From: Gemmatimonadaceae bacterium | Lineage (GTDB): Bacteria > Gemmatimonadota > Gemmatimonadetes > Gemmatimonadales > Gemmatimonadaceae | Length of the DNA: 64,000 nt | Reading direction: 5' to 3' | NCBI GenBank assembly: GCA_020851035.1 | Contig: JADZDM010000005.1 | Span: forward strand, 186,001 to 250,000 | In this document: positions 49,176-54,672 of the stretch, one piece after another | Layout: each line of letters begins with the position of its first letter | How positions within the stretch are numbered: the first letter of the stretch is position 1 | The notes under the pieces: generated by a model | Seen by the model: only the letters and a program-made list of their open reading frames with translations | What the model was told of the DNA's origin: nothing | Databases searched by the model: none | Made by a program: the position numbers and the translations under genes

Positions 49176-49885
49176 GCGCAGAACTCCCCGGCAATGGCGC
49201 GTGCGTCGAGTGCGCCGGTGTAGAGCGCCATGCCCAGCACGGCCGCGGCCACGCCGCAGTCGTCGAGGAGGCGCAGGTCGGTGTCGGTGGTGATGCCGCC
49301 GCTGGCGATCACGGGCAGCGCCGTGGACTCGGTGACCGATTCCATCAGCGCCAGGTCGGCGCCCTGCAGCAGCCCTTCCTTGTGGACCGCGGTCACCAGC
49401 ACCCCCGCCAGGGGCAGCGACGACAGGCGTTCCATCGCCTCCGCGATGTCGACGTGGAGCGTCTTCGCCCAGCCGCGGGTCACGATCGTCCGGTCGCGCA
49501 CGTCGGCGGCGACGATCAGCTGGTCCGGAAAGTCGTCGGCCATCTCCGCCAGCCACGCCTCGTCCTCGAGGGCGCGCGTGCCGACCACGACGTAGGTGGC
49601 ACCGGCGTCGATGAGCCAGGTGATGTCGTCACGATCCCGCACGCCGCCGCCCACCTGCACCGTGAGGTCGGTGCGGTCGAGCAGGCGCTCGATGAGCCGC
49701 CGGTTGCTGCCACGGCCGGTGGCGGCATCGAGGTCGACCACGTGCAGGGCCTGGAAGCCCTTCGCCTCCCAGTCGAGTGCCACCGCGAGCGGGTCGGGCA
49801 GCCGGATGCGTTCGGCCGTGTACTCACCGCCCACCAGCTGCACGCAGGCGCCGTCGCGGAGGTCGATGGCGGGAATGGCGATCAT
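49172..49885 (-). CDS. hisA: Phosphoribosylformimino-AICAR isomerase HisA
   Basis: HisA opens the ribose ring of ProFAR to PRFAR. The 237-residue (beta-alpha)8 barrel starts MIAIPAIDLRDGACVQLVGG, with the catalytic Asp in AIDL and a second in VAADVRD. Phosphate loops are VQVGGGVRDRDDI and ASGGITTDTDL. The length is typical. Its ATG overlaps the hisH stop by four bases, and its stop overlaps the hisB start, so it is translationally coupled on both sides. Confidence 0.96.
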   Translation of the reverse strand: MIAIPAIDLRDGACVQLVGGEYTAERIRLPDPLAVALDWEAKGFQALHVVDLDAATGRGSNRRLIERLLDRTDLTVQVGGGVRDRDDITWLIDAGATYVVVGTRALEDEAWLAEMADDFPDQLIVAADVRDRTIVTRGWAKTLHVDIAEAMERLSSLPLAGVLVTAVHKEGLLQGADLALMESVTESTALPVIASGGITTDTDLRLLDDCGVAAAVLGMALYTGALDARAIAGEFCA

Positions 49886-50487
49886 GACAGCACCTCGCGC
49901 AGCCACGCGTGCACGAAGCTGACGCCCGCGCTGCTGCTCTTTTCGGGATGGAACTGCACGCCAGTGCATCGGCCGACGCGGATCATGGCGGGAAAGCGGT
50001 CATCTTCGTGCGTGCTCCACGCCACGACCGTCGTGTCGTCGAGCGGCCGGCAGGCATAGCTGTTCGCGAAGTATGCGGTGCGCAGCTCGGAGGCGTCGAG
50101 CAGCGGGTCGCGGGCGGGGCCGAGCTCGAGCTGGTTCCACCCGATCTGCGGCACCCGACGGGCGGCCAGCCGCGTGACCCGCCCGGCCACCACGCCGAGT
50201 CCCGCCCCGCCCCCTTCCTCGCTGGCGTCGAGGAGCACCTGCATCCCCAGGCAGATCCCGAGCGTCGGGAGGCCGCCGAGGATCGCATCGCGCAGGCACT
50301 CGCGCCCGGTCGTGCCCAGCGCGCCGGTGGCCGCCGGAAAGGCGCCCACCCCGGGCAGCACCATCGCGTCCGCCTGCACCGCCCGGGACGGATCCGTCTC
50401 CACGTGAACCTCGACACCGGGGCGCTCGACCGCCTTGAGCAGCGAGTGCAGGTTGCCGGCGCCGTAGTCGAAGACGCTGAGCCTCAC
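49882..50487 (-). CDS. hisH: Imidazole glycerol phosphate synthase subunit HisH
   Basis: HisH is the glutaminase that supplies ammonia to HisF. The 201-residue class I amidotransferase shows the nucleophile Cys in LGICLGMQVLLD and the His-Glu pair in GVQFHPEKSS. LPGVGAFPAA and ANSYAC are also family marks. It starts at a GTG (FDYGAGN follows), whose codon overlaps the hisC stop (GTGA). The alternative longer reading into hisC is not coding in this frame. It is coupled to hisA. Confidence 0.95.
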   Translation of the reverse strand: MRLSVFDYGAGNLHSLLKAVERPGVEVHVETDPSRAVQADAMVLPGVGAFPAATGALGTTGRECLRDAILGGLPTLGICLGMQVLLDASEEGGGAGLGVVAGRVTRLAARRVPQIGWNQLELGPARDPLLDASELRTAYFANSYACRPLDDTTVVAWSTHEDDRFPAMIRVGRCTGVQFHPEKSSSAGVSFVHAWLREVLS

Positions 50488-51569
50488 GCCGTCCTGCCGG
50501 GCTTCCGCCTGCGCAGCACCGTGCCGAGCACCTTCACCGCCTGTGCCACCAGCGGCCACGGCCCGACGGAGATGCGCAGGCAGTCGCCCACGCGAGGCAG
50601 GTACGGGAACGGCCGGACTCCCACGCCGCGCTCGCGCATCGCAACGCTGGTGGCGACCGCGTCCGGCACCGGCACGCACACGAAGTTCGCGCTGGAGGGG
50701 ATCGGGTCGAGGCCGAGCTTGAGCAACTCGATCGTCAGGCGATCGCGGTTCTCGACGGCGAGCTGGATGTGCTCCAGCACCCACTGCACGTCATCGCGCA
50801 GCGCGGTGGCCGCGACCCGCTCGGCGAGCGCGCTCACCTTGTACGGCCCCCGTGCCTTCTCCACCTCGCGCACGAGCGACGGGTGCCCGAGTGCGTAGCC
50901 CACGCGCAACCCCGCCAGCCCGAAGGCCTTCGACATCGTGCGCACGAGCAGCACGCGTGGGGACCGCTGCAGCAGGTCCACGTTCGAGACACCCGCGAAC
51001 TCCACGTAGGCCTCATCGATGACCAGCAGGCCCGGCGCGTTGTCGACCAGCGTCTCGAGGGTGCGCCGCGCGACCAGTGCCCCCGTCGGGTTGTTCGGTG
51101 AGCAGAGGTAGATGATCTTCGCGCCGGTGGCCAGCAGCGCGTCGGCGTCCGCCTCATGATCCGGCAGCTCGGTGAGGAGCACGGAGCGCAGCGCATTCAT
51201 CCGCGCGAGGATCGGCACCATCGCGAATGTCGGGTCGGGCGCGGCGACCAGGTCGCCGGCATCGCCGAACGCCCGCAGCGACGCGTCGAGGATGTCGTCC
51301 GAGCCGCAACCGGTGACGACCATGTCCGCGGTGACGCCGGCGTGTGCCGCGATCGCCGCCTTCAGGTCCGCGCAGTAGAGCGACGGGTACCGGGTGATCG
51401 TCGCGGCACTGCAGTCGCGGATCGCGCGGGCCGCCGCCGGCGGCACGCCCCAGAGGTTCGTGTTGTCCGTCAGGTCGAGGTCGACGGGCGCGCGTCGGGG
51501 GTCGTAGAGCGTGAGGTCGTCGTAGCAGGCCCGCGCGATGGAGAGGCGGTCCGCGGTCGGCACGGTCAT
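50484..51569 (-). CDS. hisC: Histidinol-phosphate aminotransferase
   Basis: HisC transfers the amino group from glutamate to imidazole acetol phosphate. The 361-residue PLP enzyme of fold type I has DLTDNTNLWG, SPNNPTGA, the Schiff-base Lys in TMSKAFGLAGLRVGYALG and LRISVG near the C-terminus. The ATG at the start of the domain is used; upstream sequence in frame is Arg-rich and antisense to hisD. It overlaps hisD by four bases and hisH by four bases. Confidence 0.95.
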   Translation of the reverse strand: MTVPTADRLSIARACYDDLTLYDPRRAPVDLDLTDNTNLWGVPPAAARAIRDCSAATITRYPSLYCADLKAAIAAHAGVTADMVVTGCGSDDILDASLRAFGDAGDLVAAPDPTFAMVPILARMNALRSVLLTELPDHEADADALLATGAKIIYLCSPNNPTGALVARRTLETLVDNAPGLLVIDEAYVEFAGVSNVDLLQRSPRVLLVRTMSKAFGLAGLRVGYALGHPSLVREVEKARGPYKVSALAERVAATALRDDVQWVLEHIQLAVENRDRLTIELLKLGLDPIPSSANFVCVPVPDAVATSVAMRERGVGVRPFPYLPRVGDCLRISVGPWPLVAQAVKVLGTVLRRRKPGRTA

Positions 51570-52876
51570 GGGGTCGGGCTCCACTGCCGCGCGGCGGCGG
51601 CGTGATTCGGCAGGCCTTCGCTGTCGGCGAAACGTGCGACATCGTCGGCAAGGGCGGCGGCGGCGTCGGGGGTGACGCGCTGCCAGGAAGTCCAGCGGAT
51701 GAAGTCCAGGGTCGAGAGGCCGGAATAACACCGCGACAGGCCACCGGTGGGAAGCACGTGGTTCGCCCCCGTCATGTAGTCGCCGAACGCCACGCTGGCG
51801 CTCTCGCCGATGAACACGGCGCCGGCGCCGCGGAGGGCGGCGAAGGCGGCGTCTCGAGACGCGGCGTGCACCGCGAGCAGCAGGTGTTCCGCTGCCCACT
51901 CGTTCGCGAAGGTGATCGCGTCCTCGAGCGTCCCGGCCTGCAGCACGCCGCCAGCCTGCGCGAAGGCCTCCTGCACGATGCCGTCGCGGCCGGCCACCGG
52001 GCAGCGGGCGTCGAGGGCTGCCAGCAGGGCCGCGGTGGCGCCCTCGCCGATGGTGACGCAGACCACCGCGGCGCGCGGGTCGTGTTCCGCCTGCGCGAGC
52101 ATCTCGAGCGCGACCGCGTCCATGTCGCTCGACTCGTCGGCGATGACCAGCAGCTCACTTGGCCCGGCCGGTGAATCGATCGCCACGGCACCGGCGCACT
52201 GCAGCTTCGCCTCGGCCACCCATGCGTTGCCCGGACCGACGATGCGGTCGACGCGTGGCACGGTGGCGGTGCCATAGGCCATGGCCGCGACGGCACCGGC
52301 ACCGCCGACGGCGAAGAGACGGTCGGCACCGGCGATGGCAGCCGCGGCCAGCACCACGTCGGTCGGGAGCCCGGTGGCCGACGGGGGCGAGCAGACGATG
52401 ACGTCGCGCACACCGGCGACCTTGGCTGGCACGACGCCCATGACCAGCGAACTGGGATAGGCGGCCCGTCCGCCCGGCGCGTACACGCCCACACGGCGCA
52501 AGGGATCGGGACGGCGGCCGATCACGACACCGGGCTCCGTCTCGACCTCGACGGCGGTGGGAAGAAACGCGCGGTGCGCCGCGCGGACATTGCGCACCGT
52601 GCGCTCGATGGCGGCGCGGAGCGCCGGCTGCATGGCATCGCGCGCCCGGTCCCACTCGGCGCGGGGCACCTCGAGCGCCGACAGCGTGGCGCCGTCGAAT
52701 CGGGCCGCCAGTGCCCGCAGGGCATCGTCTCCCTCCCGCTGCACCTGGGCGATGATGGTGGCCGTGCCGGTCCGGATGCCCTGGTCGGCGGAGGTCGAGC
52801 GATCGAACAGCGCGCGCCGGTCAGCGGAGCTCAGGGCGGACACCGGGCCGGAGAAGCGGAATCGCGGTGGGGTCAT
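51566..52876 (-). CDS. hisD: Histidinol dehydrogenase
   Basis: HisD oxidises histidinol twice to histidine, with zinc and NAD. The 436-residue protein shows RRVGVYAPGGRAAYPSSLVM, VGPGNAWVAEAK, IDSPAGPSELLVIAD, EHLLLAV and the zinc and substrate segment TGANHVLPTGG. It ends SEGLPNHAAAA. The length fits. The ATG overlaps the hisG stop by four bases and its own stop overlaps hisC. Confidence 0.97.
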   Translation of the reverse strand: MTPPRFRFSGPVSALSSADRRALFDRSTSADQGIRTGTATIIAQVQREGDDALRALAARFDGATLSALEVPRAEWDRARDAMQPALRAAIERTVRNVRAAHRAFLPTAVEVETEPGVVIGRRPDPLRRVGVYAPGGRAAYPSSLVMGVVPAKVAGVRDVIVCSPPSATGLPTDVVLAAAAIAGADRLFAVGGAGAVAAMAYGTATVPRVDRIVGPGNAWVAEAKLQCAGAVAIDSPAGPSELLVIADESSDMDAVALEMLAQAEHDPRAAVVCVTIGEGATAALLAALDARCPVAGRDGIVQEAFAQAGGVLQAGTLEDAITFANEWAAEHLLLAVHAASRDAAFAALRGAGAVFIGESASVAFGDYMTGANHVLPTGGLSRCYSGLSTLDFIRWTSWQRVTPDAAAALADDVARFADSEGLPNHAAAARQWSPTP

Positions 52877-53730
52877 GGCATCAGGCGCTCGATGCGCGTC
52901 ACGAGGATCCCGGTGCACCCCAGTTGCTTGAGCTGGCCGATGGTGCGGTAGATGGTGGCGGCGGGGACGACCGCGTGGACGGCGACCATCTCGCCATGGT
53001 CCATGATGTCGATGACCGTCGGTCCGTTGATGCCGGGGAGGATCGTCCGGACCTCGTCGAGCCGCACGCGCGGCACGTTCGCCATCAGGTAGCGGCGGCT
53101 GCGGGCCCGCAGGACCGAGGCCAGCGCGTCCACCAGCTCGTCGAGCACGACGCGGGCGGGGTCGCCCGGCGGGACGATGGTGATCAGCCGCGCCGACGAC
53201 TCCAGGACGGTCGCGATCTCCGTGAGGCCGTTGACCTTGAGCGTCGAGCCGGTGGAGGTCAGGTCGACGACGATGTCGGCGATGCCGAGGTGCGGCGCGA
53301 TCTCGGCCGCGCCGGAGACCGGGACGATGTCGACCGGGATGCCGCGCGCGGCGAAGTAGTCCGCCGTGATGCGCGGGAAGACCGTGGCGACGCGGGGCCG
53401 GTCGTGGAGGTCGTCGATGGACCGGAGCCGGCTGTCCTCGCGGACTGCGACCACGAGGCGGCAGCGTCCGAATTCGAGGTCGAGGAGCTGCTCGACCTGC
53501 CGTCCCGACTCCCGCACGAGGTCGATGCCGGTGATGCCGGCCTGCGCGGCGCCGTCGGCGACGAATTCTGGTATGTCAGCGGCTCGCACGAAGATGGCCT
53601 CGAACTCACCACCGAGGGACGCGGTGAGCGCGCGCTCCCCCTTGCCTCGAACCTCGAGTCCGGCGTCGGTGAAGAGCTCTCTGGCGTCCTCGGAGAGGCG
53701 GCCTTTGTTCGGCAGGGCGATGCGCAGCAT
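52873..53730 (-). CDS. hisG: ATP phosphoribosyltransferase, long form HisG
   Basis: HisG joins ATP and PRPP in the first committed step of histidine synthesis. The 285-residue protein starts MLRIALPNKGRLSEDA and has FVRAADIPEFV, the PRPP-binding DLTSTGSTLKVNGL and a C-terminal ACT-like regulatory domain (residues about 210-285). It is therefore the long, histidine-inhibited type and does not need HisZ, which is absent. An attenuator lies 20 bases before the ATG. It is the first structural gene of a complete operon. Confidence 0.96.
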   Translation of the reverse strand: MLRIALPNKGRLSEDARELFTDAGLEVRGKGERALTASLGGEFEAIFVRAADIPEFVADGAAQAGITGIDLVRESGRQVEQLLDLEFGRCRLVVAVREDSRLRSIDDLHDRPRVATVFPRITADYFAARGIPVDIVPVSGAAEIAPHLGIADIVVDLTSTGSTLKVNGLTEIATVLESSARLITIVPPGDPARVVLDELVDALASVLRARSRRYLMANVPRVRLDEVRTILPGINGPTVIDIMDHGEMVAVHAVVPAATIYRTIGQLKQLGCTGILVTRIERLMP

Positions 53731-53750
53731 GCGGTGTTGCGGTGGGTGGG

Positions 53751-53795
53751 GACAAAAACAGCGGCGGCCCGTCCAGACTCCGGACGGGCCGCCGC
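53751..53795 (-). terminator. Transcription attenuator of the his operon
   Basis: On the minus strand, GCGGCGGCCCGTCC (53795-53782) and GGACGGGCCGCCGC (53774-53761) form a perfect 14-base stem with a seven-base loop. TGTTTTTGTC follows. This is a Rho-independent terminator 20 bases before hisG and 24 bases after the leader-peptide stop. The leader segment GACGGGC (53853-53847) is complementary to GCCCGTC in the 5' arm (53789-53783) and could act as antiterminator. Confidence 0.9.
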
Positions 53796-53819
53796 GATGT
53801 ACGTGCCAGCGCGTGAGAC

Positions 53820-53903
53820 CTACGCGAAGCACCACACCCGGACGACGCCCGTCGGGCGGCGACCATGATGGTGGTGGTGGTGCAGGCTGGCGGATCGGGA
53901 CAT
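53820..53903 (-). CDS. hisL: His operon leader peptide
   Basis: The 27-residue frame reads MSRSASL, then six consecutive His codons, then GRRPTGVVRVWCFA and a TAG stop. A run of His codons just before an intrinsic terminator is the hallmark of ribosome-mediated attenuation, known from the enterobacterial his leader. When histidyl-tRNA is scarce, the ribosome would stall on the His codons and allow antitermination. No Shine-Dalgarno is present; the promoter spacing places the transcription start at or next to the ATG, so a leaderless mRNA is likely. Confidence 0.88.
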   Translation of the reverse strand: MSRSASLHHHHHHGRRPTGVVRVWCFA

Positions 53904-53910
53904 GGCGCGA

Positions 53911-53939
53911 AGAGTAGCGGCGCCCGGGAGCGGGGTCAA
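53911..53939 (-). promoter_or_regulatory. His operon promoter
   Basis: TTGACC (53939-53934) and TACTCT (53916-53911) on the minus strand are separated by exactly 17 bases. Only seven bases separate the -10 box from the ATG of the leader peptide, so the transcript should begin at or next to this ATG. Confidence 0.65.
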
Positions 53940-54030
53940 TCACGGCAGCCAGGGAACGTCCGGGAAGCGGCCGTGTGTTCAGTCAGCGCGATGGTGCATC
54001 TCCTGACCGCCCACCCGCGGGTCACGGGGC

Positions 54031-54162: not shown

Positions 54163-54672
54163 ATGCAGTTCAAGGTTCTGGCTGTTGCAACGAGTGCCTT
54201 TGCACTTGCCGCATGTGGTGGTGGTGAGAAGAAGGCGGCCGACACCGCTGCTGCGGCGGCGCCGGCTCCGGAAGCCGCGGCCGCCCCGGCCGCGGCGGCA
54301 CCTGCCGCCGCCGGTGCAGTCGCTGCGAGCCCGATCACGGGCACGACGCACACGGTCAACATGATCGGCGACGAGAAGGGCTATCGCTTCGAGCCCGCCG
54401 AGATCACGGTCAAGGCTGGCGACGGCATCAAGTTCGTGGACGTGAAGGGTGGGCCCCACAACGTGGCGATCGACCCGGCCACCGCCGGCGCCTCGGCGGC
54501 GCAGCTGACGGCCAACATGCCGGAGAGCACGGGCGAACTCACCGGAAAGATGCTGGTGACCGATGGTGAGACGTGGACGATGTCGTTCGGCGGCGTTGCG
54601 CCGGGCACGTACACGGCCATCTGCACGCCGCATCAGGCGATGAACATGATCATGAAGATCACGGTCCAGTAA
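54163..54672 (+). CDS. Plastocyanin/azurin-like cupredoxin lipoprotein
   Basis: The 169-residue protein has a lipoprotein signal (VATSAFALAACGGG), an Ala/Pro-rich linker to about residue 53 and a cupredoxin domain. The copper ligands are complete: His in GGPHNVAI, then Cys, His and Met in CTPHQAMNM with the spacing of plastocyanin. It should be an envelope electron carrier. The ATG is preceded by GAGGAG eight bases upstream. A hairpin-bearing 5' leader and a strong terminator frame it as a single-gene unit, divergent from the his operon. Confidence 0.9.
   Translation: MQFKVLAVATSAFALAACGGGEKKAADTAAAAAPAPEAAAAPAAAAPAAAGAVAASPITGTTHTVNMIGDEKGYRFEPAEITVKAGDGIKFVDVKGGPHNVAIDPATAGASAAQLTANMPESTGELTGKMLVTDGETWTMSFGGVAPGTYTAICTPHQAMNMIMKITVQ

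Follow-up and report, generated by a model that had tools for sequence, protein, structure and literature searches.

A known histidine attenuator is that of the enterobacterial his operon (Rfam RF00514, His_leader), in which a run of His codons lies in a leader peptide, a terminator stands before the first his gene and alternative pairing of the RNA is available. In the available text of the sources, His leader-peptide attenuators are described in enterobacteria and in Firmicutes (PMC9413887, PMC2965389), where His leaders with a terminator precede hisZ/hisS in bacilli, the his operon of the B. cereus group and others (PMC2965389, PMC9413887). Leaderless or nearly leaderless leader peptides have been reported for other amino acids. 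In the C. glutamicum ilvBNC operon the start codon of the leader lies 1 nt from the site of transcription initiation, with no ribosome-binding site, which is experimentally supported (PMC11857589), and in S. meliloti the attenuator RNA of trpL (rnTrpL/peTrpL) starts at the leader-peptide ATG (PMC7298713). Additionally, leuL, trpL, ilvL, metL and thrL of S. lividans encode leaderless leader peptides behind TTGACn/TAnnnT promoters, some of them with terminators (PMC8079986), and leaderless poly-Cys ORFs occur in mycobacteria (Canestrari 2020, as cited in the available text of PMC13236596). Thus, both leaderless leader peptides and attenuators for histidine are already known elsewhere, as are comparable switches for other amino acids. 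Our searches of the literature, outside which subscription papers largely fell, returned nothing on leader peptides in Gemmatimonadetes, nothing on Gemmatimonas combined with leaderless and nothing relevant on His leaders in Myxococcus; neither the combination of a leaderless leader with a His attenuator nor its occurrence in Gemmatimonadota or Myxococcota was found in the literature searched.

The window, i.e., the whole stretch of 64,000 nucleotides analyzed here, is part of a 4.97-Mb genome whose named close relatives are Gemmatimonadaceae. On its minus strand, a promoter, a leader ORF and a terminator are followed in that order by hisG-hisD-hisC-hisH (Table 1). We interpret this arrangement, with a probability of about 0.83, as ribosome-mediated attenuation of his operon transcription, in which the leader peptide is read from a leaderless mRNA (5' UTR of 0 to about 3 nt). 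Leader and terminator very probably switch the his genes on when histidine is short. The open frame of hisG extends upstream through the terminator and the leader to a GTG at 53943 (window 52873-53943, minus strand), and automatic annotation could wrongly over-extend hisG in this way, thereby masking the leader. The divergent neighbor (54164-54672, plus strand) is a small cupredoxin of the plastocyanin/azurin family with a lipoprotein-like start.

Table 1. Features of the his leader region and operon in the window (strand and supporting observations as given).
Feature	Position	Strand	Support
-35 box TTGACC	53934..53939	-	TTGAC 34-41 nt before leader start in 106/119 relatives
-10 box TACTCT, 7 nt before leader ATG	53911..53916	-	same spacing in relatives
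his leader ORF, 27 codons + TAG, predicted leaderless (ATG at 53903, TAG at 53822-53820)	53820..53903	-	His leader in 119/124 upstream regions
Six consecutive His codons (CAC x4, CAT x2), regulatory codons	53865..53882	-	CAC/CAT about equal across relatives
Segment 1:2, local hairpin CGCCC-GAC-GGGCG, antiterminator competitor	53846..53858	-	
Segment 2, GACGGGC, predicted to pair with terminator 5' arm, starting the antiterminator	53847..53853	-	
GCCCGTC within terminator 5' arm, partner of segment 2	53783..53789	-	
Intrinsic terminator stem, 16 pairs, 3-nt loop	53761..53795	-	kept in 118/119 relatives with leader
T5 run of terminator	53754..53758	-	
hisG, long form with HisG_C, first structural gene (ATG at 53730)	52873..53730	-	Pfam HisG 170 bits + HisG_C
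hisD open frame, mechanical listing; true start maybe further in	51566..52918	-	
hisC open frame (class I/II aminotransferase), mechanical listing; true start further in	50484..51899	-	
hisH open frame (glutamine amidotransferase domain), mechanical listing	49882..50784	-	

The likeness to the enterobacterial system is close: a His-codon run, a terminator ahead of the first his gene and alternative pairing are all present, and the operon and the logic are identical. The differences lie in the predicted leaderless start, in another RNA core (ACGGG/CCCGT) and in the phylum. No part of the window matched the RF00514 model at E<=10, and against ten relatives the best score of the model was 26.8 bits, below the gathering cut-off of 49. 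The Firmicutes attenuators likewise belong to another phylum, with no sequence relationship shown and no leaderless start described in the available text. As predicted for the locus described here, the C. glutamicum ilvBNC attenuator combines a near-leaderless leader with regulatory codons and a terminator (PMC11857589), but it responds to branched-chain amino acids and belongs to Actinobacteria. The S. lividans leaders share the TTGACn/TAnnnT promoters and have the leaderless start that is predicted here, although no His leader is given there (PMC8079986) and the phylum is again a different one, while trpL of S. meliloti concerns tryptophan in an alphaproteobacterium.

An earlier note on this DNA had reported a 27-codon frame with six consecutive His codons, and this frame (MSRSASLHHHHHHGRRPTGVVRVWCFA) is indeed present on the minus strand. 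The comparison suggested there, a search for His-codon runs before hisG in related genomes, was carried out on the regions upstream of hisG from about 190 loci, which were reduced to 124 non-redundant sequences, mostly from several families of Gemmatimonadota together with a Myxococcaceae/Archangiaceae set and a few bins labelled otherwise. With a His leader defined as an ORF having at least four His in nine codons, a His-rich leader was found in 119 of the 124 regions, versus 3 in the reverse complement and 0-2 in shuffled sequences. These leaders comprise 22-33 codons (median 27), of which 4-8 are His codons, and over all of them CAC was used 409 times and CAT 343 times, so that the amino acid is conserved and not the base. 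CAT is nearly as common as CAC in spite of the GC-rich genomes. Tandem His codons in a short ORF precede hisGDCH in the window and hisG in nearly all relatives, and the attenuator is real and widely conserved, with a leader that is predicted to be leaderless.

An intrinsic terminator separates the leader from the first gene, and it starts 24 nt after the leader, as the note had given. Its stem is GC-rich and is followed by TG and then T5 (TGTTTTT). The T5 run of the noted "perfect 14-base-pair" terminator was correct; the stem length was not, as the stem has 16 pairs, one of them G-U, around a 3-nt loop, and the run ends 23 nt, not 20, before hisG. In 118 of the 119 relatives that carry a leader, the stretch separating it from hisG contains a GC hairpin that has a T run. 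A looser count detected a terminator in 120 of the 124 regions, versus 8 in the reverse complement and 16-25 in shuffled sequences.

The promoter described previously, TTGACC-17-TACTCT ending seven bases before the leader ATG, was confirmed, with TCGCGCC between TACTCT and the start codon; a strict 9-of-12 promoter scan missed it because it scores 8 of 12. When any in-frame ATG or GTG was allowed as the leader start, 106 of 119 leaders had a TTGAC 34-41 nt ahead of it, versus a mean of 0.67 and a maximum of 4 in shuffles, and 13 leaders lacked an exact TTGAC at that distance. Ten of the 11 myxobacterial leaders listed share this feature, and most begin with GTG. With the start codon closest to the His run used instead, 74 of 119 leaders had a promoter scoring at least 8/12 that ended 5-9 nt before it, versus 0.57 in shuffles. 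Shine-Dalgarno-like motifs before the leader were not enriched (9/119 versus 13.3 in shuffles). The spacing of 5-10 nt from the -10 box to the start is conserved among the relatives, some of which have 9-10 nt, so that a UTR of 2-4 nt is possible in them. In S. lividans the mean distance from the -10 box to the start is 6.3 nt, and start sites in Streptomyces were measured 4-9 nt after the -10 box (PMC8079986); similar start sites would leave a 5' UTR of 0 to about 3 nt here. The leader mRNA is accordingly predicted from sequence to be leaderless or nearly so, with its first base coinciding with the ATG or lying no more than about 3 nt from it. The leaderless leader proposed in the earlier note is thus supported by comparison, through the promoter-to-start distance fixed in the relatives and the lack of Shine-Dalgarno enrichment, whereas its expectation that such a leader would be unusual in this phylum is not: the His attenuator with a predicted leaderless leader is the rule in Gemmatimonadota, not an oddity.

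The window's own genome was also searched for TTGAC-N18/19-TANNNT. Six sites, the his leader included, are followed by an ATG at 5-9 nt, versus zero sites with an ATG at 12-16 nt and zero at 22-26 nt. At least four of the other five sites (L194-L198) open long or clearly coding frames, and one is a 56-codon frame; leaderless genes seem, as judged from these sites, to be in general use in this genome. By eye, genes were recognizable at at least three of the five, namely a RelE/HigB-like gene followed by a helix-turn-helix-like frame, an ArsR-like regulator and a transglutaminase-like protein.

The leader segment ACGGGNCG is complementary to the 5' arm of the terminator. The pairing of GACGGGC with this arm, also proposed earlier, stands as complementarity and recurs in nearly all relatives, where ACGGG[TC]CG follows soon after the leader His codons and the 5' arm carries CGGCCCGT. 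The ACGGG segment is not tied to one reading frame: it falls in each of the three leader frames (in 97, 15 and 6 sequences) and reads, for instance, as GPTG in Gemmatimonas and as GPDG in Myxococcus. It is therefore the RNA that is constrained, not the peptide. With relatedness ignored, the antiterminator columns were paired in 82.9% of cells, versus a mean of 81.1% and a maximum of 82.4% among 500 sets of shuffled partners, and both sides had changed in 17 cases, versus a shuffled mean of 7.8 and a maximum of 15. Since the ACGGG/CCCGT pair hardly varies, this covariation is modest; one clear compensatory case was seen (L161, GACAGG opposite CCTGTC). Duplex energies of leader and arm differed only slightly overall between cognate and random partners (-17.0 versus -16.6 kcal/mol). 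In addition, a small hairpin, GGCCC-GAC-GGGTC, is widely available and can compete (84% paired, versus 32-65% when slid).

The switch was further explored by folding growing transcripts, with the pairing probability of the terminator 5' arm with upstream RNA as the measure. This probability was 0.77 with a ribosome on the first His codon, 0.39 with one at the stop codon and 0.62 with none; shuffles gave 0.63, and 106 of 117 sequences exceeded their own shuffles. In the window, the stalled state is predicted to fold into one long antiterminator, GACGGGC...GUGUGGUGC with GCAC...GCCCGUC. With the 3' arm present, as in the folded full-length transcript, the terminator is more stable than the antiterminator, so the switch must be kinetic, here as in classical attenuators; a stall at the first His codon also leaves the small 1:2 hairpin free, and thus timing must decide. 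The folding, together with the modest covariation, predicts that a mutually exclusive antiterminator forms when the ribosome stalls.

Several other explanations of the locus were considered. The same attenuator could be carried on an mRNA that is not leaderless, if the main transcript started further upstream and the leader were initiated internally without a Shine-Dalgarno sequence. Initiation of this kind exists in GC-rich bacteria, and the strict scan gave no 9/12 promoter. However, the distance from promoter to leader start is fixed in 106 of 119 relatives, and promoters of this type in the window's own genome lie 5-9 nt before an ATG and are absent at the two larger distances tried, which makes an internal start unlikely. 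A function of the leader ORF in controlling hisG translation, or in shielding the RNA from Rho, could stand in place of transcription termination, and the mycobacterial poly-Cys ORFs are cited as translational attenuators in the available text of PMC13236596. Shine-Dalgarno-like motifs precede hisG in 21 of 124 regions. Against such a function, the strong intrinsic terminator and T run between leader and hisG are retained in 118 of 119 relatives, and we consider it very improbable.

Direct sensing of histidine or uncharged tRNA by the RNA, as in a riboswitch or a T-box, would render the His codons incidental. The RNA of the window is indeed structured (z -3.5), but the window contains neither a T-box covariance match nor any other relevant Rfam match at E up to 10, and conservation of the His run is at the level of the codon, CAC and CAT being freely exchanged, so that we give direct sensing hardly any credence. 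Finally, His codons and hairpins arise readily in GC-rich sequence, and a search for ATG plus four His-like codons returned 26 matches in the own genome, the his leader among them; yet a chance His run next to an ordinary terminator is refuted by conservation, given His leaders in 119 of 124 regions versus 0-2 in shuffles, and its probability is negligible.

Ribosome-mediated attenuation with a leaderless leader is therefore the reading retained. From the observed anatomy, its conservation, the fixed promoter spacing and the complementarity kept in multiple frames, we infer a start site, translation, stalling and a histidine response as follows. RNA polymerase would begin at or beside the leader ATG, and a ribosome would load, unaided by any Shine-Dalgarno sequence, onto the start codon at the 5' end. 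With plentiful charged tRNA-His, the ribosome would pass the six His codons and segment 2 would be unavailable as the terminator arm emerges, so that the 16-bp terminator would form and transcription would end before hisG. With scarce charged tRNA-His, the ribosome would stall at the His codons and GACGGGC...GUGUGGUGC would pair with GCAC...GCCCGUC, including the terminator 5' arm, ahead of synthesis of the 3' arm; with this antiterminator formed, the polymerase would continue into hisGDCH.

The range of the system extends to a second hisG subtype (L224-L253) in other families of the phylum, which has its own His leaders and a different terminator core (CGCCGGC...GCCGGCG). The promoter spacing is unchanged in many of these leaders; within this subtype the antiterminator was less clear and the expected compensatory change was not clear-cut. 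Some hisG upstream regions (L226, L249 and similar) have the promoter spacing and a terminator, yet few or scattered leader His codons, as in the short frame after ATGACGAACACCCAT in L226; these leaders are possibly degraded or sensing other codons. Most genomes with short HisG have no leader directly upstream of hisG, and no similar leader was seen in the stretches around trpE and leuA of the own genome, where gene starts are only partly resolved. In the HisG tree, the main myxobacterial group forms a well-supported clade among Gemmatimonadota sequences; the backbone is weak, and transfer and shared descent, as well as the direction of transfer, are therefore indistinguishable. The hisG sequences of L059 and L088, labelled Comamonas sp. 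KCTC 72670 and Candidatus Kuenenia, fall inside Myxococcus and Gemmatimonadaceae, and their labels or bins are probably wrong.

Altogether, these observations would extend ribosome-mediated attenuation to Gemmatimonadota and Myxococcota. The more than 100 natural variants of an attenuator predicted to be leaderless allow the study of how a ribosome without a Shine-Dalgarno sequence keeps pace with the polymerase, and the fixed promoter-to-start spacing provides a genome-based sign of leaderless translation in a little-studied phylum. More tentatively, the attenuators may form an old leaderless family that runs through Gemmatimonadota and, whether by descent or by transfer, also takes in Myxococcota. 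Leaderless initiation would in that case belong to the switching mechanism itself, with a 5' end that has to stay unpaired and a ribosome that has to load at once behind the polymerase. If so, no leader-peptide attenuator would have been described before in Gemmatimonadota and Myxococcota.
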